Below, piece after piece: positions 21,811-41,453 of a DNA stretch of 64,000 nt (position 1 is the first letter of the stretch; each line of letters begins with the position of its first letter). The notes under the pieces are model-generated. The model saw only the letters and a list, made by a program, of their open reading frames with translations, did no database searches and was not told the DNA's origin. The stretch is taken from positions 20,478,030 to 20,542,029 of the forward strand of contig JAKZAP010000016.1 in NCBI GenBank assembly GCA_023053575.1, given 5' to 3'. The stretch is from Branchinecta lynchi. Its lineage: Eukaryota > Arthropoda > Branchiopoda > Anostraca > Branchinectidae. The position numbers were made by a program, and so were the translations under genes.

Positions 21811-21816
21811 TTTATT
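21811..21816 (-). terminator. Candidate polyadenylation signal of gene 1
   Basis: AATAAA on the minus strand, 180 nt after the TAG at 21996; it is the first such hexamer I see downstream of the last exon. Confidence 0.45.
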
Positions 21817-21995
21817 TATAAACAACGTTATCACGATGAAGACCTTTTTCTCGCACGACTAGGTCACTAAAATTCCGATATTTACACAAGAAAGCTTTAA
21901 ATACGCGAACGGGCTAAAATATCACGGCGTCACTCTTGACTTGGGGGCGAAACTCAGGAAAGGGTAAATCACATTCATAAGGTTATAATCACAAC

Positions 21996-22082
21996 CTAAT
22001 CGTATCTTGTCGCTTCCTTCCACACGTCAGCTCCCTGCTTGACTTTTTCTCCGGCGTATTGTGCAGCGTCTGAAGCCTTGCG
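21996..22082 (-). CDS. Gene 1 last exon (C-terminus)
   Basis: A strong pyrimidine tract and CACAG precede CGCAAGGCTTCAG, phase 0. Twenty-eight codons (RKASDAAQYAGEKVKQGADV, then W, K, E, A, T, R, Y, D) end in TAG. The start continues the LEA-like helix of the previous exon (ASDAAQYAGEKVKQG). The C-terminus is not an ER-retention signal, so export is expected. Confidence 0.72.
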   Translation of the reverse strand, partial: RKASDAAQYAGEKVKQGADVWKEATRYD

Positions 22083-22299
22083 CTGTGAAAAAAAAAGAAA
22101 ATAAACAAACTTCAAGATCTTCCGGCTAATGGGCAAGGGCAAAGGCCGTGCTATTAATGGGCAAGGGCTGTGACCTTCCCCTTTCCGAAGTTGACTCATA
22201 GTTCGTAAAGACGAGAATTCCACATCTCAGAAATCAAGGATAGACCCAGACAGACGACCGACTAACGGGACGAAATTGGAAAATCGAGCGTTTTCAATA

Positions 22300-22520
22300 G
22301 ATGTGTTTTTGATCGAAGTTTGAAGTTCCCTTCAACCTCACAGGTCTTTGTTTAATTACCGTTTGTGTTCGCCGGTCACAGTTTCTTCGTCCTTCTATCT
22401 CTGACGATTGACCGTCGAACTTCGTGAACTGGCAAGCTCGAAGTTTGCTTGTACCGTCGAAGAAACGTCGAGGAAACGTCAACCGGGCAAGGATCGCCGG
22501 AGTCGTAAAAACACTAATTA
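22300..22520 (-). mobile_element. TAGTTGCG-family MITE, one half of a split copy
   Basis: GTTTTTGATCGAAGTTTG near 22304 and the following 200 bp match the right half of the element at 31991-32284 in reverse orientation. The other half lies at 24706-24790, after a 2.2-kb insertion. Confidence 0.7.
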
Positions 22521-24705
22521 ATAAATAATAGTAACAAGAGCTACGAGCTCATATGGCACTTGTACGAGTAGGCTGTACAAGAAAATAGATGAGAACGTCA
22601 CAAAATACACCCGCCATCCAAAAATGCGGTTCGGAAATAGAAATAGGATATTTAGTTTCACTCATTTCTGAGCAGTTCTGGCATCGTCTCGATTGTCTGT
22701 AGAAAATGCACATGACTGTTGAAACTTTCATCCCAATAAATCCATTTGTTTGATCCCTAGACGTGCTACACGATTTCCGGTACTCACTCTATCTCCACCT
22801 ACCGTGGCCGAATCTGGTTCGGAATAAAAGAAATCGACCACCCAAAGCATCTTCGTTTACACCATCTATCAAGTTTCACTCGAATCTGAGCATTTTTGGA
22901 AAGTTCCGGTACCCCCCCCCCCCCCCTCCCACCAACGTTGTCGGAGCCAGTTCGGGCCCAATCTCTTAATTCCCTGTTCCTGAACATCCAGTTTTACTGA
23001 AATTGGAGCATAGCCTATCTGCAAGTTTCCAGTACCCCCCCCTACCTTGGCCGAATCCGGCCCGGACGCCAAATAACAAATTTAGGCCGCATAAGCTCGG
23101 CACTGTCGAATTTGGATCTCATTCGGTCCATCCGTTTGGTTTTTGTGCATGTCAAAAGTCCCCCCACCCCCAATTCCCCTAATCGTGGTCGCATATGGTT
23201 CAAACGCATGTTTCACATGTCGAGGCCATCGATTCGTATCACCCATGAAGTTTCACTCGAATCAGACCACTCGTTCGCAATTTATAGAAGTCAATTTCCA
23301 CATTTCTCTTCTCTCGCTCCCCAAAAAATGCTCGGATCTAGGAACGGAAGTTTCCGGGGGTATGTTATGTCAGGTTCTTAAGTCAAGATAATTCGGGTCG
23401 CTAATATGCCTGCAAAGTTTCGTTGTCATTTTACATCTGGAACTATTCTAACTCACGACTACCGGAATTCCAGGAAACCCCCTCCAACTCCCCCCAGAGA
23501 GCCCGAAACCATCTGGCTCCGTCAATTTCATTTGTTCCATCCATTAAGTTCCGTCCCACTCCCTCTGCTTTTACAGTTTCTTGAGTTCCCCCCCCCCATC
23601 CCCACAGGTATCGGACCCGACCCAGACGTGACACTGAACGCCCGAGGCGATAGATCACCAGGCAAATTTCATTCAAATCCGATCACCCGTTCAAAAGTTA
23701 TGCACGCCACTAAATTCCGGACTCCCCATCCACCCACTCCCCCCTCGATGGTCGAGTCGGGGAAACGGCTGTACTCAAGTCAATCTGTTCGGATCTCTGA
23801 CATACCTGCCAAGTTTCATCGCCCTAGGACATCAGGAAGTATGCCGAACTCGCGGGATCCCTAGAAATCCGGACCCCACCCCAACTCCCCCAAAGTGCCC
23901 TGATCCGGTCCGGTTATGTCGATGACATGTCTAGGACTTGTGCTTGTTTTTCCCACCAAGTTTCATCCCGATCCCTCCACTCTAAGCGTTTCTGAAAATT
24001 TACGGTTCCCTCCTCCAACTCCCCCCAGTGTCATCGGATCCGGCCCAGATTTAAAGTGAGATGTCTGAGACACGAAGTCATCCTAAATATCAACTTTCAT
24101 CAAGATCCGATCACTCGTTTGCAAGCTAAAAATACCTCAAATTTTGGCTTCACCCTCCCTCCACCCCCCCCCCCCCCAGATGGTCGAATCGGGGAATTGA
24201 CGATTTCTTATTTAATCTGGTCGGGTCCCAGACATGCCTGTCAATTTCCATCGTCCCAGCACATCAGGAAGCACGGAACTCGCGGGATCACTACAAATTC
24301 GGACTTCTCCCCCCCCCCCCCAACTCCCCCGAAGTGAGCGGATCCGTTCCGGTTATATCCGTCACGTATCTACGACTTTTGCTTGTACTTTCCACCAAGT
24401 TCCATCCGAATCCCTCCACCCTAAGTGTTTTCCAAGCTTTCCGGTTTCCCCCTCCAAATCCCCCCAATGTCACCGGATCCGGTCTGGATTTAAAATGGAG
24501 GGTCTGAGACTCCCCTCCAGATGGTCGGATCGGGGAAGCGACCATTTCTAATTTAATCTGGTCCATTTCCTGATATGCCTGCCAAGTTTCATCGCCCTAG
24601 CTTATCTGGAAGTGCCCCAACTAGCAAAACCGGGACCGACAGACCGACTGACGGACAGAAATTACAATCGCTATGTGGCACTTGAGTAAGCTCAAGTGCA
24701 TAAAA
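22521..24705 (-). repeat. GGCACTTG-hairpin interspersed repeat, inserted in a MITE
   Basis: Minus-strand copy (C-rich on plus), bounded by AACAAGAGCTACGAGCTCAT then GGCACTTG on the left and GTGGCACTTGAGTAAGCTCA on the right. Internally it repeats a block of roughly 200-300 bp with AAGTTTCATC, GATCCGATCAC and CCCCCTCC boxes about eight times. Many open frames inside are by-products of this periodicity. Confidence 0.75.
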
Positions 24706-24790
24706 ACAGTGAACTTCGACGACGTTCGAAAACGGGGATTAAGCAACCGGCTACACTAACGGCGAACAAAATTTCGATCAAAAACGCTAA
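24706..24790 (-). mobile_element. TAGTTGCG-family MITE, other half of the split copy
   Basis: AGTGAACTTCGACGACGTTC through TTTCGATCAAAAACGC matches the left part of the family in reverse, completing the copy that begins at 22300. Confidence 0.65.
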
Positions 24791-25327
24791 TGCCTAGAGT
24801 TCTCCCTGTCGCGAGTCTAAACCAAGGCTCGGTACGACCATCGCGATTTGGAGTCATCCGTCGAAAGTTTCTCCGAGGCATGATTAAAGCTAACTACGGT
24901 ATTTGCAACGAGAATTAACCTTATCTCTACTGCGATAAGATTAATCCGATTAAGAAAAGATTTTTTTACTGTGTAGACAAACTCGAGGCTGATCATGACA
25001 AGAAAGTCAAATTTCAACACCTTCTTGTAGAGAAAATAAAACGGCACAACATGTCGAAGTAGAGAAACCTACCGGGTGCAAAATTCATATTTTTCAGCGC
25101 TTTTTGTCTCTGTTTCTCTTGTCGATCAGCTGTTTTCTTAATTTCTTTTAATAATTTGCTAACGATTCTCTGTCGTTTCTCCTTGAGAAGATGTGTGTTC
25201 CATCAGCTGTTCGATGTAATCTTTTGGAACTGCTCGTTACCTAAGCCCCCCCCCCCCCCCCTCCTATGCACCTATGCTATAGGTATACAATTTTGGGGAT
25301 CGGTCCAAGGAAAAATGCGCCACTTAC

Positions 25328-25573
25328 CGCTACTGTGTCGTAGGCCGATCCTACTGTATCCTTCACGGCGGCAGCCCCTTGCGCCGTCTTGTCATACGCG
25401 GCCACCGGCACCTCCCTTGCAGTGTCGTAAGCAGATCCGGCTGCATGCTTCACGCTATCGTAGGCGCTACCAGCTACTCCAGCTGCCGCACCTGCCGCTT
25501 GCTTCGTCGTGTCCAAGGTGGCCTGCGGTGCCTGCACAACGGCGTCGTACATGTTCCCAGCGGCATTTTTCAC
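25328..25573 (-). CDS. Gene 1 exon 7: Ala-rich LEA-like helices
   Basis: The acceptor AATTATAG precedes GTGAAAAATGCC and the donor is GTAGCG then GTAAGT, both phase 0; 82 codons. The motif SAYDSVKHAAGSAYDTARE is repeated in form as VGSAYDTVA, spaced by Ala/Gly-rich stretches (TTKQAAGAAAGVAG). Its Y-D-x-V/A-K-x-A-A pattern is the same as in the central part of exon 6, so this exon extends that helical array. It is followed about 3.2 kb later by the stop exon. Confidence 0.8.
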
Positions 25574-25955
25574 CTATAATTTTCCAAATATTAAAATGAA
25601 TAAGGCCGTAAAGAGGATTCACGGCTCACCGTGCCAAACCATACGGACTGTAGTCTGGTGACGAGACCAGTCGGACAGCAACAGAAAACTACCGGTATGC
25701 ACCAAGGGATCACTGGCACCAGCGATCCCACCTAGAGGCCACCCTTCAATCGAGCTTCGAGGGGAGGGGGGGGGACAATGATGAATGAGAAAAGACGGAG
25801 CTGACAGAGCGTGGGAAGTCGGTCGAAACACAACTTTAGCTGATCTTGTCACTTCTAGTAGATTGATCTGCAATTAACCTGACCGATATGACACTGGAGT
25901 CCTAAAAAGCAACAGTGAAGTCCTAAAAAGCAGCAGTTTAGTCGTAGCAGCTTAC

Positions 25956-28900
25956 CTTTTGGAAGACGTTTGTGTTTCCTTCTGGTTCCTGCCGCAGAGC
26001 GTCTTGTGCCTGCTGGTACACTCGTTGTCCCGCCTGCTGACCAGAAGTATAGGCATCCCCAGCCGCCCGTCTCGCTCTTTCTGCCACGTCTGATGCCTGA
26101 TCGGACGCGCCCTGGAAAGGGTGCATCACCGTGTCAGCAACCCTGTGCATGAAACCCTGGCCTTGCTGCGCAGCCTCTTCTGCCTGCCTACGAACTCGCT
26201 CAGCTGCGTCTTGTGCTTGACCTGCTCCTTGGCTGAATGGATGCAGTGCGGTATCTGCTGCTCTGTGCAAAAAGCCTTGGCCTTGCTCTGCAGCTTCTTC
26301 TGCTTGCCGTCGAACACGTTCTGCTGCATCCTGGGCCTGGTCAGCTCCTTGGCGGAATGGATGCATTACGGTATCGGCTGCTCTGTGCAAAAAGCCTTGG
26401 CCTTGCTCTGCTGCTTCTTCTGCTTGCCGTCGAACACGTTCTGCTGCATCCTGAGCTTGCTCAGCTCCTTGGCGGAATGGATGCATTACAGTATCGGCTG
26501 CTCTGTGCAAAAAGCCTTGGCCTTGCTCTGCAGCTTCTTCTGCTTGTCTCCGAACACGTTCTGCTGCATCCTGGGCTTGGTCAGATCCTTGGCGGAATGG
26601 ATGCATTACAGTATCGGCTGCTCTGTGCAAAAAGCCCTGGCCTTGCTCTACCGCCTCTTCTGCCTGTCGTCGAACACGTTCTGCCGAGTCTTGCGCTTGA
26701 TCTGCTCCCTGGCTAAAGGGGTGCATCACGGTGTCAGCTACTCTGTGTACGAAACCTTGTCCTTGTTGTGCAGCCTCTTCTGCCTGTCGTCGCACACGTT
26801 CTGCTGCATCCTGTGCTTGGTCGGCTCCTTGGCTAAATGGATGCATCACTGTGTCTGCTACCTTGTGCATGAAACCTTGACCTTGTTGGGAAGCTTCTTC
26901 CGCCTGTCGTCGGACTCGTTCTGCTGCGTCCTGAGCTTGGTGTGCTCCCTGGCTAAACGGATGCATCACAGTGTCAGCGACTCTGTGCACGAAACCTTGG
27001 CCTTGCTGGGCGACCTCTTCTGCCTGTCGTCGAACACGTTCTGCAGCATCCTGAGCTTGATCTGCTCCCTGACTGAACGGATGCATCACGGTGTCAGCTG
27101 CTCGTTGTAGAAAGCCTTGGCCTTGCTGCGAAGCCTCTTCTGCCTGCCTGCGAACTCGTTCAGCTGCGTCTTGCGCTTGGTCTGCTCCTTGGCTGAAAGG
27201 ATGCATTACGGTGTCGGCTACTCTGCGCACAAAACCCTGGCCTTGCTGGGAAGCCTCTTCAGCTTGTCGGCGAACCCGTTCGGCCGCGTCCTGTGCTTGG
27301 TCAGCTCCTTGGCTGAACGGGTGCAAGACGGTATCTGCGACTTTGTGGAGAAACCCCTGACCTTGTTCAACAGCTTGCTGCCCCTGGTCTTCTGCTGCTC
27401 GCCTTGCCCGCTCGTAAGCCTGCTGAGCTTGGTCTGACCCTGCGCTGAATGGTGCAGTTATCGTATCCTTAACCTTGTGCAGAAGTCCCTGACCTTGGTC
27501 TTGAGCTTCATGGGCCATGCCTTGCGCCTGACCATAGGCATCTCCTGCCATCTGTCGTGTTGCGTCATATGCTTGCGAAGCCTGGTCGGAAGCAGATCTG
27601 AAGGGGGCGGCTACGGTTTCCTTTACTTTATCATAAAGTCCTCTGCTCTGATCCTGCGCTTGTTGATAGGTATCCTGAGCCTGTTGGTATGTATCTCGTG
27701 CAGTTCTCTGCAGATACTCAGGCACCACAGCGTCCTTCACATTTCGAGCAGTCCGAGCTGCTTGGCCGAACACATCTCGGGCTGCACTGTAAGCTTCGTC
27801 ATAGGCTCTTTGAGTCCTGTCTGGAGCACTCACGAAAACATTCTTCACCTTGTCAAAAATACCCTGAGGTGGCTCAGGTTCGCCAACCACATTTTCGTAC
27901 GATCGGCGAGCAGCCTCGTATGCCTGGTTGTACAGGTGCTTGGTCTGATCCGTGCCAAGGTTTAATGCATGCTTGATCTTGTCCATGACTCCTTCACCAC
28001 CCTGTTTTACGAACTCTCCAGTGTTCTCTGCAGTCTGCACAGTCTGCTCATACGCAGAGCGTGCAGCGTCAAAGGCTTGATCGTACGCAGTCCTCGCCGT
28101 TTCCCCAACCGAGCCCGCTGTTTCTCTCACATTTCTTGCGCCTTGCTGTGCGTAATCTGCTGCACGATAAGCCGTGTCCTTCACCTGGTCTGCCCCATAC
28201 TGTGCAGTACTCTTTGCCTGGTCGTACGCTCCCTGTGCAGTATCACGAACCTGTTCTGCACCGTGTTGTGCGTAGCTTGCAGCCTGATCATACGCCCCAT
28301 GCGCAGTATCACGGACTTTCTGTGCACCTTGCTGTGCGACGTCTGCAGCCTGGTGCATGGTATTTGCGGCGGTGTCCTTGGTGCCTTGGTAAGCTGATTG
28401 CATCGTGTCTGCGGCTCTGCCGTAGGTCGACTGCGCCTGCTGTTGAGTGTCACGAGCGGCACGAGACAGCTCCTCTGAAGAAGTGAATGGGTGCAATATT
28501 CTGTCAACTACACCAGGGCCTTGGAATACTTCTTCTGCCTGTTGTGCAGTCTGCTTCAGCTGCTGCTGTGCATCTCTAGCCTTTCGTAATAATTCTTCTG
28601 ATGATGTGAATGGGTGCAGAATCTGGTCAACAACTCCAGCTGGCAAGGGGGCGGACTCACCAGGATACCTTGCTTCTCTCTTCTGCCTCTCCAACTCTTC
28701 GCTGGAAGTAAACGGATGCAGAATGTGCTCAGCAATGGATGGGCGATCCTCCGCAATGTGGCGCTGTTCGCGATTTTGCCTTTCCAGTTCTTCAGCAGGG
28801 GTCAGTGGGTGCAGTGCTTTTTGAATCAAGCCTGGCTGGTCAGACTCCCTAGCTTTCGCCTCACGCACATTCCGATTAAGCTCGGCTTCGGGAGTGAGGG

Positions 28901-29326
28901 GGTGAGCTAGGCGGTCTAAGATGCCAGGGGCTTGCTCTGGGGTTCCTAGTGCTTCGGCACGAGCTCTTCGCTCAAGCTCTTCTGGACTCGTGAAGGGGTG
29001 CTTGATCTTGTCGATAACCGACGGCCCGAAGTTCTCCCCAGTTTCCCTCGTCTGTATGATATGCGGCTCATTTCCATATCCAGAATCACTGACGAAGACG
29101 CTCTTCACCTTGTCAAAGGCACCTTGAGCAGTACCTGTTGCAGCATCGTAAGCTCCTCGTGCGGTATCTGCAGCTTGGCCTGCAGTTTGCGAGACGGTGT
29201 CTTTGACGCGTTCGTATACTCCGGGAGCGGTCTCACGAGCGTGGCGTTCGGCTTCTTCTCGAAGACGTTGGGTTTCATCCCCAGAACTGCTGAAGACGTT
29301 CTTTACTTTGTCGAACATGCTTTGGC
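25956..29326 (-). CDS. Gene 1 exon 6: giant repeat exon of the secreted LEA-like protein
   Basis: The acceptor TTTCTTTTTCAG precedes GCCAAAGCATG and the donor is CAAAAG then GTAAGC; phase 1 in, phase 0 out, 1123 codons without a stop (protein residues 214-1336). In order: MFDKVKNVF helices; six modules of about 38-40 residues with a core like ILHPFTSSEELERQKRE (about 315-540); an 11-mer-like region rich in TAQGAYDQA, QQGAQKVRDTA and similar (about 540-730); DKVKNVF/DKVKET linkers; then about eleven 40-residue units of the type VMHPFSQGADQAQD plus AAERVRRQAEE (about 868-1300). I see no Cys. The exon's GC content and codon regularity differ sharply from the AT-rich introns. Repeat number probably varies between alleles. 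Confidence 0.9.
26105..27365 (-). repeat. In-frame 120-bp tandem array encoding 40-residue HPF modules
   Basis: The units step by exactly 120 bp (for example the CCTTG starts at 26761, 26881, 27001, 27121 and 27241). Ten near-identical units plus a diverged last one encode G-Q-G-F, then H/R-K/R-V/A-A-D-T-V-M-H-P-F, then Q-A-Q-D-A-A-E-R-V-R-R-Q-A-E-E. The unit length keeps frame and about eleven helical turns. Neighbouring units are most alike, as unequal crossing-over would produce. Confidence 0.92.
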
Positions 29327-29689
29327 CTGAAAAAGAAAGAAATCATCACCAACTGAGGTTAAGGATTACGTTCCTAGATGATGGCTTACAAACGAACTGT
29401 AAAGAGTTTGATAGTCGCTTAGAATCGCAAAAAACAAAAAAAAAAAAACAGTGGGAACATTAAGTTAGCACGGCTAGAAGCACGAACTTTACTGTAAGAA
29501 TGTTTCTATTGGAACTCAACCCCCCCCCCCCCCCTTGGGACTAACAAGAGCTGGCTGCTCATAAGCCGCATGGGTCAGAACGATACGAGGAAAGGAAGCT
29601 ACCAGCAAGTTACTAATGTAATGGCAATCCTGTTAGCGCGCAGCTACTCCAATACAAAAGTGACAATACTCTGCAAGGAACTTGAGTTT

Positions 29690-31010
29690 TTCTGGCACTT
29701 GCCTTCCGGCCAAGTGTCATATACCGATCACTTTTCCGTCGGTCTGTCGGTCGTTCGGTTACTCCGGTGTTCACGAGTTAGGGTATTTTCAGATAAGCTA
29801 GGACGATGAAACCTGGCAGGCATATGAGGGACCCGACCAAACTAAGTTGGAAATAGTCACTTGCCCGATCCGACCATCGTGGGGGGAGGGAGGGGAGCCG
29901 GAATTTAGTGGCATGCATGACTTTCGAACGGGTTATCGGATTTTAATGAAATTCGATATATGGAAAGACGTCATGTCTCGGATGTCTCATTTCAAGTCCG
30001 GACCGAATCTGATGAATGTGGGAGGGGGAGGCGGAGTGGGGACCGGAAATCATGTGACACGGTGAGTGGGAGGATCGGGATGAAACTTGGCGAGAGGAAC
30101 AAGTACTAGCCCAGGTACATCATTGACAGAACCAGACGGGATTCGTGCACTGTAGGGGGAGTTGGAGGGGGATCCGGAATTCCGGTGATTATGGAGTTAA
30201 GCTACTTCCAGGTGGGTTAGGACAGTGAAACTTGGCAAGCATACCAGGGACCAAACCAAAATAACTCGGAAATAGTCGCTTCCCCGATCTGACCACCGTG
30301 GGGGACAGGAGGGAAGGGTTATCCGAAATCTAGAGGTACGTATATCTTTGGAACGGGTGATCGGATCTTAATGAAACTTGATATTTGGAAAGACCTCGTG
30401 TTTCGGATATCCCATGTGAAATCCGAACCGGATCCGATTATTTTTTGAGGGGGAGTCAGAGGAGGGAGCCGTAAATCTTGTGACGCGCTTAGAGTGGAGC
30501 GATTGGGATGAAACTTGGTAGGAAGATCAAGCACAGGCCCTAGATTTATCAGTGACAGAACTGGATCGGAATCGAGCACTGCGGGGGAGTTAGATAGGGG
30601 GGGGGGGGGGCGGTACTCCGGTGATCACGAGTTAAGATACTTCCATGTGCTAGGGCCATGAAACCTGGCTTGAACATTAGAGGCCTGACATGATTAGATT
30701 CATTCTAGCCTCAAAGGTTTTGACTGAATTTCTTAAAGTACAAATGATACTTTTGAGCAAAATATACATTTCATTCTCCCGATTTTTGCTTCAAGAGTTT
30801 TTATTACAGACGAATTTTTAGCGCCCCTAAAGTGAGCATCATCACAGCCAAATCCATTACCAAATGACACGTTCTTGTGAAATCCAAGGACCCATTATCT
30901 TAAACTTTTGCTTACAAATAACCACAACAAACCCACGAACTGAAGAATTCCTACTTTCATCCTCTGGCCCAGCCTTGCAAGTGCCATATGAGCTTCCAGC
31001 TCTTGTTTTT
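29690..31010 (+). repeat. GGCACTTG-hairpin interspersed repeat
   Basis: Plus-oriented copy from TGGCACTTGCCTTCCGGCCA to CAAGTGCCATATGAGCTTCC followed by AGCTCTTG. It contains about five G-rich internal units with GGACGATGAAACCTGGCA-like and GTGGGGGAG-like boxes. It lies in the intron upstream of the giant exon. Confidence 0.75.
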
Positions 31011-31988: not shown

Positions 31989-31990
31989 TA

Positions 31991-32284: not shown

Positions 32285-32300
32285 TACTGACTTATTTTAC

Positions 32301-32599: not shown

Positions 32600-32760
32600 G
32601 AGATCCGGATTCCGGGGGAAAAACTTTTCCGGCAAAAACTTTTATCATAATATCCGGTTTCGTCCAGATTCCGGGTGAAATACTTGTCCGACGAGAAAAT
32701 GTTTTTCATTTAGATGTTCAGGATGTTTTCTTATCCCTAAATCAAACATCTACAAACTGT
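32600..32760 (-). repeat. GGGATCCC-type repeat fragment
   Basis: TCCGGATTCCGGG, ATTCCGGGTGAAATACTTGT and CTTATCCCTAAATC are minus-strand versions of the internal sub-repeat. Only about one unit is left. Confidence 0.5.
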
Positions 32761-33947
32761 CGAACTACGAAACTATCCACGAACTCGACCTCTCCCCGGA
32801 CCGTTTGCTGGAAGTCCAACCGAAAAATCCGAATTTATATTTATCCCTCGCACATCACTCTAGAGGGATAATTAGCTGATCAAGAAAAAAAACCGAAAAT
32901 CAGTGTTTTCTATTTCTTTCGTAAGGAATGGTCAGCTTGGCTTGAAACCTTATATTCCTCACACCATATTCCATCAAAACATCTCATTCCCTTTACAGAT
33001 ATCCCTTTGCGTCTTGCACATACCACGGTATCTGATAACACAGTCAAAAGTCGTTTTCGCAATTTCATGGCATCTAATACCACGGTCAAAAGTCACTTTT
33101 GGAGTTATCGTGGTATCCGATATTCAGATTCAGGTTGTGGTATCTGAAATGGTCATAAAAATTTCACCAGCTTTTGTCAGACTGGAGGGAAAGAAGTTGT
33201 AACTCTATCTGCGAAAACGCAACTATGGCGTCCCCCCATTTACGTTTTGGGATCCAAAATAATAGCTTCAGTGGATGGAGGAATTATAGTACTATATAGT
33301 TATAGTATAGTATATAATGGTAAGTATTATAATATCCCGACAAAAAATTTATCTCAAAATAGTACTATGAAGTAGTACGAAAAAATGACATGCAGTACTA
33401 ACGATGCTACTACATGCTCGGTGCCATGGTAGAGCTGGTCGCTTTGCTTTCTTCAATAGAACAGAAAAAAAGTAAACTGAAATAATTTTCTGAAACCAAC
33501 CGCTCAAAAGCTGCGTCTGAGACTGTCGCCTAACTAGCAGGTACACCTTGATTCCCAACCGAGGTGTAAACACATACGCCATCTAGGCAGGCAATAAGTT
33601 AAGGTTATTGCTGATAGATGACGTATTTCTCTAATTGCCATTGTGACAGGTGATGCTGATCTACATCAAGTAGATGATCAAGTGATGATGCTGATTTGAC
33701 CACGTCCGGTAGCGAGTGGCTCAACTTAACATCTTGTTGAGAGAGGAGACCTTTTGTAAATACTACTACCATGATCAGTTACCACGGTCCTGAATATCAG
33801 ATACGATGGTGGTAACTGGACAAAAATTGATGAAAGTGAGTTAACTTTTTCAGATACTACGATCAGTCACCACGGTCCTGAACATCAGATACGATGGTGA
33901 CTGGCCAGCAAAACACGCCAGGGATTCTCAGGAAGAAGGAGTAAACG

Positions 33948-34075
33948 TGTCCGTGACGACTCAAACTCAATAACTCAAACCCTGAGCCAGCGCAGCCGTG
34001 ACACCGTTTCTTCCGTTCTTCGCAGTTACCCGGAGATTCTGCATCGGAAGGTAGAGATAGTCATCAAGTATATTG
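33948..34075 (+). repeat. Second copy of the 21184-21325 repeat
   Basis: GACGACTCAAACTCAA through GAGATAGTCATCAAG parallels the copy at 21184 in the same orientation. The surrounding 32.8-34.4 kb is otherwise intron sequence, with GGTATCTGATA-like short repeats near 33030-33130 and 33780-33900. Confidence 0.6.
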
Positions 34076-34409
34076 AGAGAGAAAGAAAAGAGTGCGTTGA
34101 GCCCTAGGCTACCTAGGGCATCCCTACCCCTCGTTTGTTGATTGGTTTCGAGAGTGGAAAATAAGGTCAGGCCCGCCGGTCCTAAGACAGTACTGTCACG
34201 CTCTTGACCAGGCTGGTTGCCATTAGGAATAGACACGAATCCAAGTGAAGAAAATGATTTAAACCAGGAAGACTGAAACAGGAATGGAAACGACAAAAGA
34301 AACGCGGCTTTAGAAACATACAGGACGATCGAAAGCGTTGAAACTATTAACGTCGCGTATGCTTTTAAGCATTTCGCTTAGCGCTGTAAGGTTACTTTAC
34401 CAAACTTAC

Positions 34410-34535
34410 TTCCTTCTGCTGCTTGTTGAGCCGTATCTCTGGTTGCCCTGTAGGCATCCGAACCAGCTTGTTTAGCCTGATCATAGTAGCTTTCTGCAGG
34501 AGGGGGTGGGGCTTCACGCGCGCCTGGTAGCGTAT
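34410..34535 (-). CDS. Gene 1 exon 4: proline run followed by LEA-like helix
   Basis: The acceptor CTTTCTTTCAG precedes ATACGCTACC and the donor is GAAGGAA then GTAAGT; phase 1 in and out, 126 bp. The peptide begins TLPGAREAPPPPAESYYDQ and continues as AKQAGSDAYRATRDTAQQAA. The proline run makes a break between helices. The DAYRATRDTAQQAA part is a typical Ala-rich amphipathic segment. Confidence 0.78.
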
Positions 34536-34679
34536 CTGAAAGAAAGAAGGTCTTCAGCCACACGCACGTCAGGTCCCTCCAGATCAACATGTACAAACTT
34601 CCCTTACGCTTTGCAATCCTTACGTAGCGCCGGGCTTCTTTACACCTGCAGCGGACTCATTCAGACTGGTGGAGAAGTC

Positions 34680-34750
34680 GAGACTGGTTTGGCAAAAATG
34701 GGACGACCTGCAGCGGACTCATTCAGACTGGTGGAGAAGTCGAGACTGGT
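34680..34750 (+). repeat. Short direct duplication of about 65 bp
   Basis: The segment TGCAGCGGACTCATTCAGAC and what follows it to TTTGGCAAA occurs twice in succession (about 34648 and 34710). Confidence 0.6.
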
Positions 34751-34956
34751 TTGGCAAACGGTGGGACGATCCTATTTCTCGTCCCCCCTTTTGCCAAAAC
34801 ATCAGAATCCTTCTTTGGGCTCTAAGTCGAGCTTAACGCAAGCAAGTTCCACCAGCCTGAATGAGTCCGCCAGTCTCGACTCTGAACTCGGTCGACTCCC
34901 ACAACTCACTTTTACCTGTGACGTTTTCTTTCTTTCCATTTTCTGCCTAATTTTTT

Positions 34957-35270
34957 CTATCTCGGAAACCAAGTATCGGAAAAACTCTTGCATAACTTTC
35001 CTCGAAGCCGGTGTCCTGATTCAACTACAAGTAAGACGTAAGCAAAATAGCGGAATTTCTTTTTCTTTTCTATTTTCATCGCTTTCAGGGAATGCAGAAA
35101 ATGAAGCAAGTGCGCAAGCGACCAAACATTGAGTGTGAAAGCCAGATGTTTATCACATCTTATATACAAACAGCGTTAGAACCAAAACATCTCTCTTCCC
35201 CAGTAACCAAACAAGTATTGAAATAACCTAATTTGAAATACTCCCCCTTTAAAAGCTAATAATATAAATA
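34957..35270 (-). repeat. Interspersed repeat shared with 63110-63300
   Basis: TGCGCAAGCGACC, ACATCTTATATACAAAC and AACCAAACAAGTATTG on the plus strand are the reverse complement of matching strings in 63110-63300. Confidence 0.65.
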
Positions 35271-35369
35271 AGCCGCATGTATAGATCCAAAGGGATACTT
35301 GCGAGATCTTGCAAGGCCAGTCTCAACAGAATGTGTGTTTACCCCTACATCTTACGCCATATCTACTTT

Positions 35370-36110
35370 GTTAAAACTGGGCAAAACTTCCTTCCTTGCC
35401 CGGCAAACTACTTGTCTGGCAAAAATACAGCTAAAAAATGGCAAACTACTTGTTTGGCAAAATACAGCTTAAAAATGAATTCAGCATGTCTCCTTACCCT
35501 TACACGAACATCTAATCAACTTTAGATAAAAAATTAAATTTTCCGGTTTCTCCCCGATTCCTAGCAAACTGCACGTCCGGGGAAGAAATTGTTGACATAT
35601 GCAGATTCAGCATTTCTTCTCACTCATAAACGGAATATCTGATCAAATTCAAACGAAATGAAACGAAATGGCCAGTGAGAAAATAAATTTCATATTTGGA
35701 TTCACCATATATTTTTACCCCTGGATTGAACCTCCAATCAACTTTCGCCGGATTCCGGGTGAACTGCTTTTCCGACGAGGACATAATTTTCCTATTCGGA
35801 TTCAGCAAAAATCTTACTAACTTAAACAAACCTCTAATCAACTTCAGATTAAACTGGTGGGCTACCCGGCGACCTACTTGTCCGGTGAGAAAATAATTGG
35901 CATATTCAGATTCAGCATGTCTCCTTTGCTTTTAAAATATTGTGTAGGCGACAGTGCCCGTCTTCGAACTTGACCTGTACTTTGACCCAAAGAGTTCTCA
36001 TGCCAAGTTTGAATAAAATATCTCAACCTCTTCCGAGATTTATCGATGGACAGAGGGACAAATTTTACGAAATCATAAATATCCCGTCACTTTCGGTTTG
36101 GGATCCCAAA
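35370..36110 (-). repeat. GGGATCCC-type interspersed repeat, minus orientation
   Basis: The end TTTGGGATCCCAAAA lies near 36097-36111, and sub-repeats with TTCCGGGTGAACTGC and CCGGTGAGAAAATAA run leftwards. Confidence 0.7.
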
Positions 36111-36119
36111 AGAAACCCC

Positions 36120-36545
36120 AATGCTCACATGCCTTCCAAGTTTCAAACTGATACCCGTTGTTTCCTGTCACTGGTTACGAACTTTACTCTTGGACAATCT
36201 GGGCTCAATTGGTGGGTGGTGTGGTGGGTGGGGAAGTCGCAACATCAAAAGTAATTTCCCAGGGTCTACAAGTACAGGGCATATCATCGTCCGATATCCA
36301 GCTCTGGCTTAGTTATGAACATTGTTGACTGGGCAATCTGGGCCCATTGTCCCTGAACCGAGTGGGTTTGGGGGGGGGGACCCTCAAAAGGCAGAACTAG
36401 TCCCAAATACCCAAAAGTGTACCAAGTTTGAACTTGGTACCAGCACTGGTTCACGAGTTATCAGCTCCAGAAAAAAACGTGAAAACCAAAAACCGAAAGC
36501 TGCTACAGCACTTGCAAGAGTGGAATGTTCCGAGGAACACCCCAC
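36120..36545 (-). repeat. Interspersed repeat shared with 62020-62480
   Basis: GTGTACCAAGTTTGAACTTG, ACGAGTTATCAGCTCCA, the poly-G tract and GGCAATCTGGGCCCA have reverse-complement counterparts in order in 62020-62480. Confidence 0.65.
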
Positions 36546-37363
36546 TAAAAACGAGCCTCGTACAGAAGAGATCCGAGACTTCAAAAGAATGAACTAAACA
36601 ATTCTGGTACAGAGCTAACTCCTGGTTTAAACATGCACTCTCGCCTCTCAGAACGATTACACATAAAAGCTTGCGTCGAATGCGAATCAGGGATTCTCTC
36701 AAGGACCGTTCAAGCTTTTGTTTAAGGCGTTGAATTTCTGAACAATACGTGCTATCCGCGAGTAAACTTCCATTCCCGCCGAGGCTTGCTGTGGTAAAAA
36801 TCAACAGGAACGGTTTCTATTATGTGTGTTAAAAATTATACATGACAAATCACGGCAATGCCTTTCCATCACGTGACTCTTGAAGAAGAAATAGAGAAAC
36901 GTTTAAGGAGAGATATCTGTAATATAAATGTAGCTGAACGAGGTCGTTGAATGAAATTCAGTCGTATTAAACTATATTACTATTTCTTTTTACACGCTTT
37001 TACCTTATCCGGATTAATAAGAGCAATCCTGGTAGGCTCGTAACTATATGGAGAAACATGCACTAGTCCGTCCAACAACACGTAGCAACATATATTATAC
37101 TGGATTGTCATGAAACCGGTAGAGGCTGATCGAAAATTTCGCATGAAAGTCATGAAAGGTCATGTTCCCTTCGGCAAACTCTTGGGATTCATTGTCAGGC
37201 TTAAGGCTCTATTTTGAAAATCTGCACATACGTGTTTCAAACGTTGGCGGGCGGCGGACAACTTGATTTCAAGTTAAACGGCCGCTGAGGATAATGCTTT
37301 GTATTTTTTTTCGTGTTACAACGTAAGTGTGAACGGTCCTTAACGAGCCAGAAACTTTCTTAC

Positions 37364-37455
37364 CCTTTACTGTCTCGTATACTCCAGCTACCTTCTCCTG
37401 GACGTAGTCAGCAGCTTTCTCAGTCAGTGTTTTACTTCGATCGATTCCCTCTTTC
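37364..37455 (-). CDS. Gene 1 exon 3: LEA-like segment
   Basis: The acceptor TTGGTTTTCAG precedes GAAAGAGGGAATC and the donor is GTAAAGG then GTAAGA; phase 2 in, phase 1 out, 92 bp. It encodes KEGIDRSKTLTEKAADYVQE, then KVAGVYETVK. The periodic K-A-A-D-Y-V-Q-E-K-V pattern is a short group 3 LEA-type helix. Junction codons: AC plus G (Thr) with exon 2, and G plus AT (Asp) with exon 4. Confidence 0.78.
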
Positions 37456-37749
37456 CTGAAAACCAAATTTGGGAACTTTCAGTACGTTATCACTGTAAAC
37501 AACTTACCTACTGTGCAATCTGTTATGAAATTTCTGACAGTGTAGTTTCTGTCAATCCCCCTGTGCCTCACCGCCAGCACTTGGATTAGACATGGTAAAA
37601 TAGATCCACAGGTTAGTGCGTGGAAAACCTGTCATCTGTGTTCCAGGTAATGGAGGTTTTGCATGTGTCTCAGCAGCAGAAAGTGACCCACTACCCTATC
37701 TATCCTACTTTTTACTATGTCTACACAATTGTTGTTTATGAGGCAATAG

Positions 37750-37874
37750 TTGTTTTTGATCGAAGTTTTGTTCGCCGTTCGCTTAGTCGGTTGCTTAACT
37801 TCCGTTTTCGAACGCCGTCGAAGTTCACCGTCTGCTTACGGCTCCGGCAATCCTTGCCCGGTCAAGAATCAGTA
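37750..37874 (+). mobile_element. TAGTTGCG-family MITE, left part only
   Basis: AGTTGTTTTTGATCGAAGTT and the following 100 bp match the left part of the copy at 31991. The match stops where a MITE of the second family begins at 37875. Confidence 0.65.
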
Positions 37875-38175
37875 GCTGCGTTCGTTGCACTCCGGGCTGT
37901 CTCTGGTGTTTAGTCACCAGTGTCCGGTTCTTCCGTTAAAACGCATTTTTTTGTTCACCTGCGAGTTGGTGGAAACCGGCTAAACCGGCTAACTCCTCGC
38001 TGCAGCAGGCCTCACGAGCAGGTTCTGGTTAGTCCGCACCGGTGAGATAAAACCGGACACTGGTTAGTTCAAGAACGGGTTATAAGACTGGTGAGAAGTC
38101 ATCGGTGGATGCAAAAACGGCTTATAAGAAAAACCGGAGACCACCGGTGAGAAATCCCGTGACAAAGAACGCAGC
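37875..38175 (-). mobile_element. TAGCTGCG-family MITE, 301 bp
   Basis: The termini GCTGCGTTC and GAACGCAGC have TA on both sides (37873-37874, 38176-38177). The whole element is the reverse complement relative of 41893-42186; both share ACCAGTGTCCGGTT-, TGCTGCAGC- and ACCGGTGAG-type boxes. Confidence 0.82.
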
Positions 38176-38591
38176 TAGTGCAAAACTCCGACCGTCAGGG
38201 ATGTTTGCAACTATGTTTCTCACAGTTCCTTATTATTTTCAAAAAGTATTTATATAAAAAAAAAAAAAAAATTCAACTCGTGCTTGAATTTCAGATTCTG
38301 GAAATATCGTTGAGGATTTCCTTCTGATCCGGACAGTATTAAAACATTTATACTGAAATCTGTTTTAGGTCAAACTCTCTGCTACCAGATTTGTTCGTTC
38401 AGCCAGTCACAGGAATGCCTCCAGCTACTCAGTACGAAGCATTCTCTAGTCCAGTGGTCCAATCAATAAATCAATGTAATTTCCCAGAATATTGTACAAA
38501 ATGGCAGTGGCATTGTCAAAAAGTTAGTTAAAAAAAAAAACAGTTAAAATGAGCACACACACAAAAACAAGACTCATATTATCTGGCGTTA

Positions 38592-38878
38592 GTTGCGTTT
38601 TTGATCGAAGTTTTGTTCGCCGTTCGGTTGCTTAATTTCCGTTTCTGAATGACGTCGAAGTTCACCGTTTGCTTAATTCTTTTTTTTTACGACACCAGCG
38701 ATCCTTGCCAGGTCGACGTTTCTTCGACGATTCTAGCAAACTTCGAACTTGCTAGCGCACGAAGTTCGACGGTCAAGAGTTTGAAGGACGAAGGAACTGT
38801 GACCGGCGACCAAAAACGGTATTTAAGCAGAGACCTTTGAGGTTGAAGGTAACTTCAAACTTCGATCAAAAACGCAAC
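38592..38878 (+). mobile_element. TAGTTGCG-family MITE, 287 bp, nested in a hAT element
   Basis: Same 20-bp inverted termini as 31991-32284 and TA on both sides (38590-38591, 38879-38880). Identity with that copy is high over the full length, with a T run replacing a few bases near 38680. Confidence 0.85.
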
Positions 38879-38882
38879 TACT

Positions 38883-38955
38883 GTAGTGCTGAACAAAGTA
38901 GGGGACAAAGGATGAATTGTTTCGCTCGCTGGAGTTTGCAGGTGGTTGCTTTAAG
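38883..38955 (-). pseudogene. LINE C-terminal stub
   Basis: Minus strand encodes PPANSSERNNSSFVPYFVQ, the same C-terminal RT motif as the LINE at 12071. Nothing more of the element is left. Confidence 0.5.
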
Positions 38956-39729
38956 GTGACTTTTGAGGCTGTTTTGGTTGGTTCCCAACCGCTGGTACGC
39001 GTACCCCAAGGGGTACGCGAAAGAACCAAAATCGATTTAGTCTGTAGCTTCAAAATCTCGTCTCACTCATTTATGACTGCCGAAAGCCTAATATTACCAG
39101 CAGAGTATCACCAGCCAAAATGTATCTTAAGGGGCAATGTATTTTCACTGACCGAACTATTTTTTTTTTTTTTAAATAACTGCTTTAACGAAAAACCACG
39201 TCGCTTCGCACTGAGTCCTTTCTTTTTAATCGTCTGGCCGACCTTTTGGGGGGGAGGGGTGTTGTCGACCTATGACGCCTATGACTACAAACTCTAGTAA
39301 AGTCAGTGAAGTAATGTTGATTCCAAAACAGCTAACCTACTGCCTTCCAAGTGATATATTCAGGTTGCAAACTGAGCCAACGAAAAAGTTTGCGATGCAG
39401 CTTGATGGAAGCACGGAGAACATCAAAACCAAACACAGAAACAGGCTGACTATACAAAATATTCCCGTTAACGACGTCGAGCCGAGATTCGACAAAATTT
39501 TAGCTACAAAGCAGCCTCTAGTGATTGCCTCGTTGATTTTGTATATATGCCTACACATGTATGCCTTATCTTTTATGATGATACATATCGTCTTTTTCAC
39601 GTTCTTCAAAAGGGGGTACGCAACCTTTTCGAACCTTGATTAGGGGTACGCGGTACGGAAAAGGTTGTGAACCACTGCTCTAGTCTACGGTGGTTAGCAC
39701 GAGGGTCGTCGTTAACGAAATGAACTTAC

Positions 39730-39900
39730 GTATATCCATGTGCTGCATCTGCTGCCTTGTTTGCTTGGTCCGCACTGTATTCCGCTGCTCGTTTCACCGG
39801 CTCACTGGATTCTCCTGTTACTGTGTCAGCAATACCTTTGCCCATCCGGCTGAAGAACTCGGTGGTTTTTGAAATGATACCTTCTCCTTCTTTTTGTTCC
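39730..39900 (-). CDS. Gene 1 exon 2: LEA-like helix
   Basis: The acceptor TTTGTTTTCCAG precedes GGAACAAAAAG and the donor is GGATATAC then GTAAGT; phase 2 in and out, 171 bp. It encodes EQKEGEGIISKTTEFFSRMG, then KGIADTVTG and VKRAAEYSADQANKAADAAH. The second half is a clear Ala/Lys amphipathic helix. The phase fits the signal-peptide exon (CC plus G, Pro) and equally the alternative exon at 41227 (TC plus G, Ser). Confidence 0.8.
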
Positions 39901-40060
39901 CTGGAAAACAAATTGCGTTTATTTGTGTTCATCTATCGAACGGCAAAACGCTAGCTTCCACAAGCTACCGACTCCCCATATTCCTTGGTCTGATAGCTAC
40001 TCTAGCAACTAGATTGTATTCTTAAAGCACACGTCATAATAGATACGGTTCTTAACGATC

Positions 40061-40282
40061 GCAACTTAACGATCGTTAACAAATTGTTAAAAGTTGCTAG
40101 TTTTTTGCGTTCCACGTTTCTGATTTCGAAATTTAAGCTCCACCCACCTTCAATTTCCGTTCCGACGCTCCGCAACTTAACGATCGTTAACAAATTGTTA
40201 ACAGTTGCTAGCTTTTTGCGTTCCACGTTTCTGATTTCGAAATTTAAGCTCCACCCACCTTCAATTTCCGTTCCGGAGCTTA
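40061..40282 (+). repeat. 111-bp tandem duplication within a palindromic element
   Basis: Two units starting GCAACTTAACGATCGTTAAC (40061 and 40172) are nearly identical. The block up to about 40430 is rich in TTAACGATCGTTAA palindromes, with GGTTCTTAAC on the left and GGAACGCAACC on the right, perhaps a foldback or MITE structure. Confidence 0.75.
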
Positions 40283-41085
40283 ACGACTGTTTACCAGTGA
40301 GCAAAATAGTCAACAATTGTAGAACTGGGAAAAGTTAATGATCGTTAAAGCTGTAGTTAGCTCCGCCCCGACGTAAAGTTAACGATCGTTAACAATTGTT
40401 AAGTTTGGGGAACGCAACCTGAAACGGTACAAACCCGATACGACGGTTTTCAGCCTGTTTCGGCCCCATTCTCTTCGAGGAGAACCACGGAAAATATTTC
40501 ACAACCAACGAGCTCATAAAAGAAATCTGAGTTCCATCATAATTACAACAGATAGATCTTTGCTTGTTAACATTATTTGTTCTTACTGTAGTTCTTACGG
40601 ATCGTACACTGGTTTAGTGCACAGTTACTGATGCATCCAGGCTGAACCGCACATGAAGATGGCATAGTTGTCGTGGGGGGAGGGGGGGCCTGTTTTCCAA
40701 TTTTAACCCGGTTTGAGTAAGGATTACGGGAGGGGTATCCAACCTCGAATTTATATTGCCTCCACTTGGCCTGAAAACCTTACAAGGTAATTTCTGTGTA
40801 GACCAAAACAGGTCCTAGGTTACTCGGGGTTTCCTTCTTGACAGTTAGGACCTCTTTATGACTGGATTAAAATTTCCTTCCAACCACTTTATGACAGGTT
40901 CGAAGTTGTGTGAATTCGAATTTGGATACCCCTCCTATGCTAGTGTGTTATTGCTTATTTTCTTCTTTTTTTTTCAAAATGTATGTCGCCCTTGCAGGCC
41001 GTTGATGATTAAAATATAGCAATTAACATTGCAATACTACAACAACAAAAAAGCTAACACTAAAATCATAAATTAGAAAACTTAC

Positions 41086-41186
41086 GGTTCCGTTTCTACC
41101 AATGGCGGCTCAACAAAGGCAAAGGTGTTAACTAGCAGGCAGGACAAACACACCCATGTCAACAGTCGACTCCTTCGTATCCTCAT
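41086..41186 (-). CDS. Gene 1 exon 1: start codon and signal peptide
   Basis: ATG (context AAAAGATGA) followed by MRIRRSRLLTWVCLSCLLVN, then TFAFVEPPLVETE; donor GAACC then GTAAGT, phase 2. The basic n-region (RIRRSR), hydrophobic core (LLTWVCLSCLLV) and NTFA-F make a classical signal peptide, likely cut after Ala-23. The mature protein would start FVEPPLVETEP and run into exon 2. An acceptor-like TTTTTCAG lies at 41201-41208, 15 nt upstream of the ATG, so 5' untranslated sequence may be spliced or continuous with 41227-41453. Confidence 0.75.
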
Positions 41187-41226
41187 CTTTTCGTTTCAAT
41201 CTGAAAAATTCAAAAGTTCAACTTAC

Positions 41227-41453
41227 GAACTGACAAGCCCGCTGACTTCAATTTGGCGTTCGAGCCGGGCGGGTAGGGAAACGTCCCCCCGAGGCTCAAC
41301 CTCTGAAATGAGTATCGCTTGAACCGTTCGCGTTTCCACTTCAGTCAGGACGGAAGATGTGGGCTTTATCACCCCCGCGACGACCTTGGTGCCAACTTCA
41401 GCAACTTCGATCATTTCCAACGAGGTTCTGACAGCGTTTGCTGCACAAAGCAA
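41227..41453 (-). CDS. Possible alternative first exon of gene 1
   Basis: Open frame of 75 codons, bordered by an acceptor-like ATTTTAG (upstream) and a donor GTCAGTTC then GTAAGT, phase 2, the same phase as the signal-peptide exon. Using its ATG (residue 14, MIEVAEVGTKVVAG) and joining exon 2 would give an isoform without a signal peptide. Only 26 bp separate this donor from the acceptor-like site of the next exon, too short for an ordinary intron, so the two are probably alternatives or one continuous 5' untranslated region. The peptide is not LEA-like. Confidence 0.4.

Follow-up and report, generated by a model that had tools for sequence, protein, structure and literature searches.

A predicted 1446-residue LEA-like protein with a signal-peptide-like start, encoded within a cluster of LEA-like genes in Branchinecta lynchi

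Group 3 LEA proteins share an 11-residue consensus with hydrophobic residues at positions 1, 2, 5 and 9. Group 1 LEA, among animals, is known only from Artemia, and a group 1 LEA gene is also present in the genome considered here, elsewhere than at the locus described below. Its presence points to a cyst-forming, fairy-shrimp-like branchiopod, which agrees with the cyst setting suggested when the sequence alone was read. In C. elegans, lea-1 is described as producing many isoforms, and its removal took a 15.8-kb deletion. Protection outside the cells of dried animals has, in our judgement, been less studied than cytosolic or mitochondrial protection. The bdelloid proteins ArLEA1A/1B reportedly enter the secretory path, and apolipophorin III is a secreted protein built of amphipathic helices. 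In tardigrades, secreted SAHS proteins are described as protecting extracellular spaces; we know of no sequence relationship between them and the protein presented here.

We analyzed a stretch of 64,000 nucleotides of Branchinecta lynchi DNA (the window), in which eight minus-strand exons (Table 1) join over 21996..41186 into a single frame of 4341 nt, corresponding to 1446 residues and a stop codon. All introns are GT..AG and the phases across the seven junctions are 2,2,1,1,1,0,0. The eight-exon gene is confirmed as real: the splice-bounded frames with matching phases proposed by a sequence-only reading do join exactly to 1446 residues, and the unusual size claimed for this single gene stands. 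The same reading extended the locus to 41453; the coding start is located at 41186. A 26-nt intron ahead of E1 (41201..41226) was judged too short. We also considered a trans-splice acceptor before E1; at the equivalent place gene 2 has an AG only, without pyrimidine tract, and gene 3 has no candidate trans-splice AG.

Table 1. Features of the 1446-residue gene and of the neighboring LEA-like genes (positions in the window)
Feature	Position	Strand	Remarks
E1	41086..41186	-	start codon; signal-peptide-like N-terminus MRIRRSRLLTWVCLSCLLVNTFA/FVEPPLVETEP
E2	39730..39900	-	phase 2/2; base-exact in exon scan trained on paralogue
E3	37364..37455	-	phase 2/1; base-exact in exon scan; E3/E4 joint re-forms family motif
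E4	34410..34535	-	phase 1/1; different acceptor in exon scan
E5	32301..32447	-	phase 1/1; missed by exon scan
E6	25956..29326	-	3371 nt; HPFTS-type modules, 11-residue-periodic region, 40-residue array; in pieces in exon scan
E7	25328..25573	-	phase 0/0; weak acceptor; E6/E7 joint re-forms family motif
E8	21996..22082	-	carries stop codon
Array of eleven 40-residue units	26004..27323	-	aa 881-1320; every unit begins HPF
AATAAA, candidate poly(A) signal	21811..21816	-	sole copy in 296 bases searched past stop
Gene 2 exon 1	15344..15495	-	basic, mitochondrial-type leader MLSKRVIGSLIQVARSRSLTV..., targeting judged by eye
Gene 2 exon 2	10461..10740	-	LEA-like
Gene 2 exon 3	9386..9571	-	found by exon scan
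Gene 2 exon 4	6472..6762	-	LEA-like; has stop; exon scan put donor inside
Gene 3 probable first exon	54989..55191	+	MEKKEVKYQQQ..., no targeting leader seen; LEA-like; continues right of window

Evidence beyond phase supports these joins. The motif [FYL][DEHQ][KRT]VK[DNSE], picked after the protein had been seen, occurs 8 times in the joined protein, and 2 of the 8 copies are created only by joining; its frequency at random joints is 3.75e-4, and 500 shuffled proteins contained a mean of 0.002 copies. We also scanned 264 kb on both strands for exons combining an acceptor, a donor, an open frame and a composition modelled on a single paralogue that lies 7.7 Mb from the gene, with thresholds set after splice-site ranking. 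Results showed 15 candidates, 6 in the 1446-residue gene, 2 in the next gene and 7 in the flanks; those within the gene were E2 and E3 exactly, E4 with another acceptor and three pieces of E6, and the scan of the 264 kb missed E1, E5, E7 and E8. When every GT or AG on the minus strand of the window is ranked, the splice sites fall within the best 0.1-3.9%, with the exception of the E7 acceptor, which lies in the top 41% of AG on that strand. The link from E1 to E2 is drawn from phase, splice consensus and uniqueness only.

At the N-terminus, a basic n-region is followed by a hydrophobic core and a permitted cleavage after Ala23, the call being based on composition and on the -3,-1 rule. A signal-peptide-plus-donor pattern, whose criteria were fixed after E1 was seen, has E1 as its single match in 264 kb on both strands, in line with the signal-peptide start claimed before. 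The protein contains 17.3% A, 11.3% Q, 8.0% E, 7.9% R and 3.9% K, so that of the Ala/Lys/Gln composition previously put forward Ala and Gln hold, but Lys is scarce and Glu and Arg are the abundant charged residues. The mature chain has a GRAVY of -0.90 and a FoldIndex of -0.074, with the C-terminal segment by itself at +0.119. The mean helical moment exceeds all 100 shuffles in 6 of 6 segments, and the 11-residue autocorrelation is 0.30-0.38 in five of them (-0.03 for aa 209-520). Between aa 526 and 700, positions 2, 5 and 9 of the 11-mer are the densest in hydrophobic residues (0.94, 0.88 and 0.69), and the off-consensus position 6 (0.62) exceeds position 1 (0.50), where the consensus expects a hydrophobic residue. 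AlphaFold2 on four repeats returned four helices at a mean pLDDT of 43.

The family tests were run against the Pfam curated cut-offs (51.1 bits for LEA_4, PF02987; 36.3 for ApoLp-III, PF07464; 37.5 for YtxH, PF12732; 27 for Ribosomal_L31, PF01197). The profile check suggested by the sequence-only reading did not reach LEA_4: with an E limit of 1 the joined protein gave no such match, and with a limit of 10 neither exon 6 nor the 11-mer region (aa 526-700) gave one. LEA_4 scored below its cut-off on gene 2 (16.7 bits) and on the paralogue (15.9 bits), and was not listed for the right-flank gene. A LEA_4 profile search of the animal's own genome returned 0 matches and is uninformative, because 14 controls also returned 0; an SMP search (group 6, PF04927) gave 0, its controls likewise. 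YtxH scored 41.2 and 39.1 bits on exon 6 and 28.7 on the joined protein, and Ribosomal_L31 scored 31.0 and 31.1 on exon 6 and 27.4 joined, over a 21-residue stretch of the array. Although YtxH passes its cut-off on exon 6 only and Ribosomal_L31 narrowly does so on the joined protein, both were read, like FtsA_C, as low-complexity matches. Local matches are inflated by low-complexity sequence. Searching PDB sequences with exon 6 and an E limit of 1 gave five matches, the best (0.03) being a 'Three helix bundle'. In a set of 5.8 billion proteins, no homologue was found for the joined protein (7992 candidates scored) or for aa 33-590 (7998 candidates scored), and conservation between species was therefore not seen. 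The LEA-like reading depends on the physical properties of the protein and on its relatives rather than on Pfam: the claim is upheld by the neighboring genes and by a genome-wide match, and not by LEA_4.

The genome-wide match involves the LEA-like paralogue 7.7 Mb off, whose best non-self match among 22 scored candidates of the 576-Mb genome is E6 (E 8.5e-12); all 6 of its matches among these 22 lay on C7. In the reverse search, E6 found the paralogue weakly (E 3.4e-4, 34%) as part of 2 matches from 14 candidates, and the right-flank gene was not among these 2. Within the window, the four exons of gene 2 encode 302 aa; a homologue search with 720 candidates gave one weak match, P0002 (E 7e-4, 39% over 31% of the query). 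The first exon of gene 3 would be tied to an exon at +65858, a link that needs a further exon because the phases do not meet directly. A short leader is common to three LEA-like gene starts and occurs nowhere else in the 264 kb, the pattern having been drawn from those three. Along the chromosome, the 1446-residue gene is grouped with a LEA-like gene of mitochondrial type and another that looks untargeted. On the LEA-density list, E3, E5 and E8 are absent from the best 22 (lowest 16.2); four 10-kb control loci, too few to give a genome background, reached 16.4 at best, and shuffles of the 264 kb reached 19.5. Heat-shock-element-like sites in the window are fewer than chance (21 vs 32.3 expected), and the 2 kb upstream of E1 has none on the list; a bacterial-type promoter scan gave nothing useful.

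Our preferred reading, to which we assign a probability of about 0.6, is that the gene product is exported and shields extracellular or cyst spaces in the manner of a group 3 LEA protein, the gene being part of a compartment-spanning LEA-like cluster. Once transcribed and translated, the 1446-residue pre-protein would enter the secretory path and lose its signal peptide, most likely after Ala23; the exported product is predicted to be acidic, Cys-free and mostly disordered, at ~155 kDa. Outside the cytosol it would then behave as group 3 LEA proteins do, staying disordered in the hydrated state and, upon water loss, gaining amphipathic helices of ~35 residues broken near HPF. The dried protein might shield proteins and membrane surfaces and aid glass formation in an extracellular or lumenal space, which in a cyst-former could be the perivitelline space, the embryonic cuticle or the shell. 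As the neighbors look mitochondrial and untargeted, the cluster may provide shields for different compartments.

The signal-peptide-like start, the repeats and the great length would also suit a structural protein of the matrix in shell, cuticle or mucus, assembled through its repeats and without any shielding role, and Artemia cyst shells are described as holding secreted matrix peptides (PMC3108945). Against this, the mature chain has neither Cys nor an N-glycosylation sequon, and both its composition and its relatives suggest a LEA-like gene; we hold this alternative to be unlikely, if worth some weight.

The 40-residue array is under strong purifying selection, with a pN/pS of 0.085 (bootstrap 0.064-0.103) over 10 units and 45 pairs, the degenerate 11th being omitted, and a dN/dS of 0.065 over 55 pairs when it is included. 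Units 1-10 carry RVRR and unit 11 RARR. R-X-[KR]-R is a furin-type cleavage motif, and 12 of the 14 such sites in the protein fall within aa 852-1296, at intervals of 40 from 896 on, the rest being at 2 and 426. A secreted polyprotein could be cut at RVRR/RARR into about ten near-identical 40-residue amphipathic extracellular LEA-type peptides. There is one RxRR per unit, with ten RVRR, one RARR that precedes the array (852) and another in the last unit (1296); dried bacteria are described as surviving better with a single LEA-1 11-mer (PMC8670023), and Artemia SGEG2 as being secreted in precursor form and presumably cleaved at RYKR (PMC3108945). However, the conservation of RVRR is not special, because the whole surrounding stretch is conserved, and RVRR may be the basic stripe of a helix; such cleavage appears doubtful. 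Its fullest form is hardly less of a long shot: export via E1, cleavage to about ten peptides in the extracellular or shell space and neighbors serving mitochondria and cytosol would together make an anhydrobiosis island partitioned by compartment and confined to a single chromosome.

We regard as improbable that the protein is mainly cytosolic, arising through alternative first exons or internal start codons at a lea-1-like locus of many isoforms, the secreted form being minor. The isoforms described for C. elegans lea-1 and the Met codons present in E2 and E6 would allow it, but E1 holds the only such signal-peptide pattern in 264 kb and its phase fits.

Equally improbable, in our opinion, is an exported lipid binder of the exchangeable-apolipoprotein type, coating lipid particles in haemolymph or yolk and taking no part in drying protection. 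It would share the signal-peptide-like start and the amphipathic helices, and ApoLp-III reaches 33.2 bits when the open frame of exon 6 is searched and 33.8 for the exon itself, yet these scores are under the cut-off and drop to 21.4 on the joined protein. The lipid-discrimination factor, for which the thresholds are 0.68 and 1.34, is low (median 0.09), and few of 950 Pro-free helix windows pass (10% at the first value, 1.3% at the second). Apolipoprotein-like matches occur in gene 2 too, and they are also described for HeLEA1 homologues, together with a low lipid-discrimination factor (PMC10808001). Finally, a pseudogene or a chance assembly of open frames, which the weak E7 acceptor and the protein-set searches without homologue might suggest, is barely credible against the purifying selection, the junction motifs and the exon scan.

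Compared by description only, the 1446-residue protein resembles animal group 3 LEA proteins (AfrLEA2, AfrLEA3m, RvLEAM/HeLEA1, AavLEA1, C. elegans LEA-1) in being hydrophilic, disorder-like and 11-residue amphipathic, and differs from them by its length, signal-peptide-like start, 40-residue HPF repeat and failure to reach LEA_4. It also differs from As-G3LEA of Artemia sinica, described as having 364 residues and no signal peptide, whereas the mitochondrial-type leader of gene 2 recalls AfrLEA3m and RvLEAM, described as mitochondrial. Bdelloid ArLEA1A/1B, again compared by description only, reportedly enter the secretory path, as predicted here, and are much shorter. Apolipophorin III shares the amphipathic helices, with a score under the cut-off and a low lipid-discrimination factor here. 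Artemia SGEG1 and SGEG2, set beside our protein by description, are secreted, as is predicted for our protein, SGEG2 presumably being cut at a basic site, and they are reported to show no apparent homology to other known proteins (PMC3108945). Although the sequence-only reading knew of no counterpart with this module set, precedents exist: PvLEA3 of Polypedilum vanderplanki is described as a LEA-type protein of the ER or Golgi, and there are the bdelloid proteins and the large, many-isoform lea-1 of C. elegans. PvLEA3 is described as having LIL-like regions that probably span the membrane, whereas none were noticed past the leader of the 1446-residue protein. If the preferred reading is true, the exported giant and its mitochondrial-type and untargeted relatives would offer a gene set for compartment-by-compartment tests of protection. 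The LEA genes in the ARId islands of the midge are described as clustered, mostly on one chromosome, as is the LEA-like cluster here; 7 of the 9 islands in the midge share one of its four chromosomes, while the LEA-like counts here are few and lower bounds. Branchinecta lynchi would then perhaps provide, after the Polypedilum midge, a second example of a chromosome on which genes related to drying are gathered.

The LEA-like gene of the window has eight minus-strand exons (E1 to E8), each an open frame bordered by GT..AG, and these join into 4341 nt encoding 1446 residues and a stop, with the seven junction phases running 2, 2, 1, 1, 1, 0, 0. The sequence-only reading had proposed a single gene of eight phase-matched exons on this strand, which the borders, the phases and the uninterrupted joined frame bear out, and its length of 1446 residues was exact; the limits of 21811 and 41453 that it gave are not those of the coding region: coding runs from the ATG to the stop listed in the table and 21811 is the end of an AATAAA. 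Scored with a generic splice consensus, the donors ranked in the top 0.1-3.9% among the 3512 GT on the same strand of the window and the acceptors in the top 0.1-3.9% among the 3777 AG, with the exception of the E7 acceptor (41%).

Four results showed that this exon set is beyond chance; in three of them the criteria were fixed after the gene had been seen, which weakens the numbers and not their direction. First, the motif [FYL][DEHQ][KRT]VK[DNSE] occurs 8 times in the protein, 2 of the copies arising solely on joining E3 to E4 and E6 to E7, and random joints of the same protein produced it in 0.0375% of 200000 trials. Second, both strands of 264 kb (the window and its two flanks) were scanned for acceptor, donor, open frame and a LEA-like composition learnt solely from one paralogue 7.7 Mb away. 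Results showed 15 non-overlapping candidates, namely 6 in the main gene, 2 in gene 2, its four-exon neighbour, 4 in the right flank and 3 in the left. E2 and E3 were recovered base-exact, E4 with a different acceptor and E6 as three pieces, because this exon exceeds the permitted length; the scan missed two of the gene 2 exons as well as E1, E5, E7 and E8. Third, the eleven 40-residue units of E6 differ mainly by silent changes (pS 0.66 and pN 0.056 for 45 pairs of 10 units; dN/dS 0.065 for the 55 pairs of all 11), and among the five alternative frames of the repeats one reverse frame had a weaker excess and the other four had none. Finally, E1 was the sole match on either strand of the 264 kb to an ATG with a basic start, a hydrophobic core and a phase-2 GTRAGT donor.

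Residues 1-23 resemble a signal peptide, as the sequence-only reading had noticed, and the -3,-1 rule would permit cleavage after Ala23, one of four sites that pass it. The mature chain, of about 155 kDa, contains neither Cys nor N-glycosylation sequons and has a GRAVY of -0.90 and a net charge of -51 when the cut is taken one residue after Ala23. The Ala/Lys/Gln composition previously ascribed to the protein stood for Ala (17.3% of the 1446 residues) and Gln (11.3%) and did not for Lys, at just 3.9%; Glu and Arg make up 8.0 and 7.9%. An 11-residue autocorrelation of hydrophobic residues (0.30-0.38) was found in 5 of 6 segments and was absent (-0.03) from the HPFTS segment (aa 209-520), and the mean helical moment exceeded that of all 100 shuffles in all six. 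Within aa 526-700, hydrophobic residues peak at 11-mer positions 2, 5 and 9 (0.94, 0.88 and 0.69), with 0.50 at position 1, where they are expected, versus 0.62 at position 6, where they are not. AlphaFold2 built four repeats as four helices with breaks at or near HPF, at a mean pLDDT of 43.2 and a pTM of 0.21, values of low confidence from a shallow alignment whose five rows all came from the main-gene protein, and which prove little; we read the modelled piece as probably having helix propensity without a stable fold.

Pfam did not list LEA_4 for the joined protein, E6 alone or aa 526-700; the check with PF02987 on the joined protein therefore came out negative. For this reason the protein is not classed as a LEA_4 member; the label LEA-like reflects its physical traits and its relatives. 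YtxH reached 41.2 and 39.1 on E6 alone versus a cut-off of 37.5 (28.7 on the joined protein) and Ribosomal_L31 was above its cut-off of 27 in all three cases (31.0 and 31.1 on E6, 27.4 joined); we read both as low-complexity matches and left them aside.

As to kin, the paralogue is a LEA-like open frame of 480 residues and lies at C7:12781787-12783226, on the same contig as the window (C7:20478030-20542029). A search with it of the whole genome (575.7 Mb, 216 contigs) gave 6 matches among 22 scored candidates, every one of them on C7: the query itself, E6 in three stretches (best E 8.5e-12), a right-flank gene (1.8e-7) and C7:12816520, 33 kb from the paralogue (4.9e-7). In the reverse search, E6 found itself and, weakly, the paralogue (E 3.4e-4), and the right-flank gene was not recovered among the 14 candidates. 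As the LEA-like paralogue itself scores just 15.9 bits with LEA_4, the cut-off set by Pfam may lack sensitivity for this lineage.

We also looked at the surroundings of the gene with the paralogue-trained score, whose maximum over 20 shuffles of the 264 kb was 19.5. Scores above this value came from E6, E7, E2 and E4, from gene 2 and from the right-flank gene, among others, and also from two poly-Ala runs (20.7 and 19.9); E3, E5 and E8 were not among the matches listed, and four control loci of 10 kb reached 16.4 at best. Counted from the window start, a 471-residue LEA-like stretch lies at +65866, beyond the window, and we infer that it forms one gene with the first exon of gene 3, on the plus strand. 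Further exons of LEA-like character were found on the right from +86 to +105 kb and on the left at -30, -38 and -55 kb; two similar sets (KNIFQRAGD.. / AKGMMSSG.. and KNIFQKAGD.. / AKGMVSSG..) between the first exon of gene 3 and about +105 kb hint at a tandem pair. A short leader, ATT(T)GA..CGA(A/G)A, precedes the start codons of the main gene, gene 2 and gene 3; the pattern, derived from these three starts, matches them and nothing else on either strand of the 264 kb. Shortly upstream of the E1 ATG, a 26-base GTAAG...TTTTTCAG stretch (41201..41226) is too short for an intron and is possibly a trans-splice acceptor. Retroelement frames, one gag-like and two of reverse transcriptase, lie within and beside gene 2, and open frames at about -79 to -46 kb in the left flank resemble, by eye, a large DNA element of Maverick/adintovirus type that has integrated.

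Positions of the genes, leaders and neighbouring frames (window positions, or contig positions where marked C7)
Feature	Position	Strand	Basis or content
Main-gene ATG	41186	minus	joined frame
Main-gene stop, end	21996	minus	joined frame
AATAAA	21816..21811	minus	sequence
Pre-ATG leader, main gene	41187..41200	minus	ATTGAAACGAAAAG
Gene 2, LEA-like, four exons, 302 aa	15495..6472	minus	joined frame
Pre-ATG leader, gene 2	15496..15507	minus	ATTTGACGAAAA
Gene 3 probable first exon, protein start MEKKEVKYQQQ with no targeting leader seen	54989..55191	plus	open frame
Pre-ATG leader, gene 3	54975..54988	plus	ATTGAACGAGAGCG
Gag-like frame	1641..3980	plus	Pfam: above cut-off for SCAN and integrase zinc-binding; slightly below it for protease and zinc knuckle
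Reverse transcriptase frame	4692..5924	plus	
Reverse transcriptase frame	12071..13435	minus	
LEA_5 (group 1) gene, 137-residue frame	C7:13667085-13667471		over Pfam cut-off; repeated EQLGHEGYVEMGKKGG units

Judged from its sequence, the locus probably encodes a giant exported LEA-like protein within a LEA-like cluster, surprising for its size and predicted targeting; the earlier observation is confirmed, and its interpretation supported in part and extended. Most likely, the protein would be exported through the signal-peptide-like start of E1 and stay disordered in water, and upon drying its 11-mer and 40-mer stretches would turn into amphipathic helices, holding proteins and membrane surfaces apart in a compartment beyond the reach of cytosolic LEA proteins. 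Hypothetically, the chain could be a polyprotein cut into 40-residue peptides, which its ten RVRR sites, flanked by two RARR, would permit, but the stretch surrounding RVRR is conserved as a whole and, because of this, we keep such processing as conjecture. Low lipid-discrimination values (median 0.09 over 950 Pro-free windows) speak for a weak and transient binding to surfaces rather than for an apolipoprotein role. ApoLp-III was under cut-off in every run on E6 and the joined protein.

Within the open-licence literature, a search by narrow phrases, which does not prove absence in print, found no paper that combines such wording on secreted or extracellular LEA, LEA proteins and anhydrobiosis. 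Excerpts of PMC8670023, PMC10808001, PMC7649794, PMC3108945, PMC4326354, PMC4132023, PMC8982440 and PMC8946055 were also drawn on. Profile search of the genome for SMP (group 6), likewise known from Artemia in the excerpt of PMC8946055, gave 0 matches, as did its controls; group 1 LEA proteins, to which the LEA_5 gene belongs, are reported among animals solely from Artemia in the same excerpt. As Artemia genomes have a bigger size and a lower GC content, the source is probably a different anostracan, a fairy shrimp. One Artemia genome study counted nine LEA genes (PMC8406910, in excerpt). Gene 2 starts with a basic leader (no acidic residue in the first 30) followed by LEA-like helices, and this leader resembles a mitochondrial type; it is alike by type, not by alignment, to the mitochondrial AfrLEA3m and RvLEAM as excerpted from PMC10808001 and PMC7649794. 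As for the main gene, As-G1LEA and As-G3LEA are described without a signal peptide in the excerpt of PMC5014412, and PvLEA3 is placed in the ER or Golgi in that of PMC7363813.
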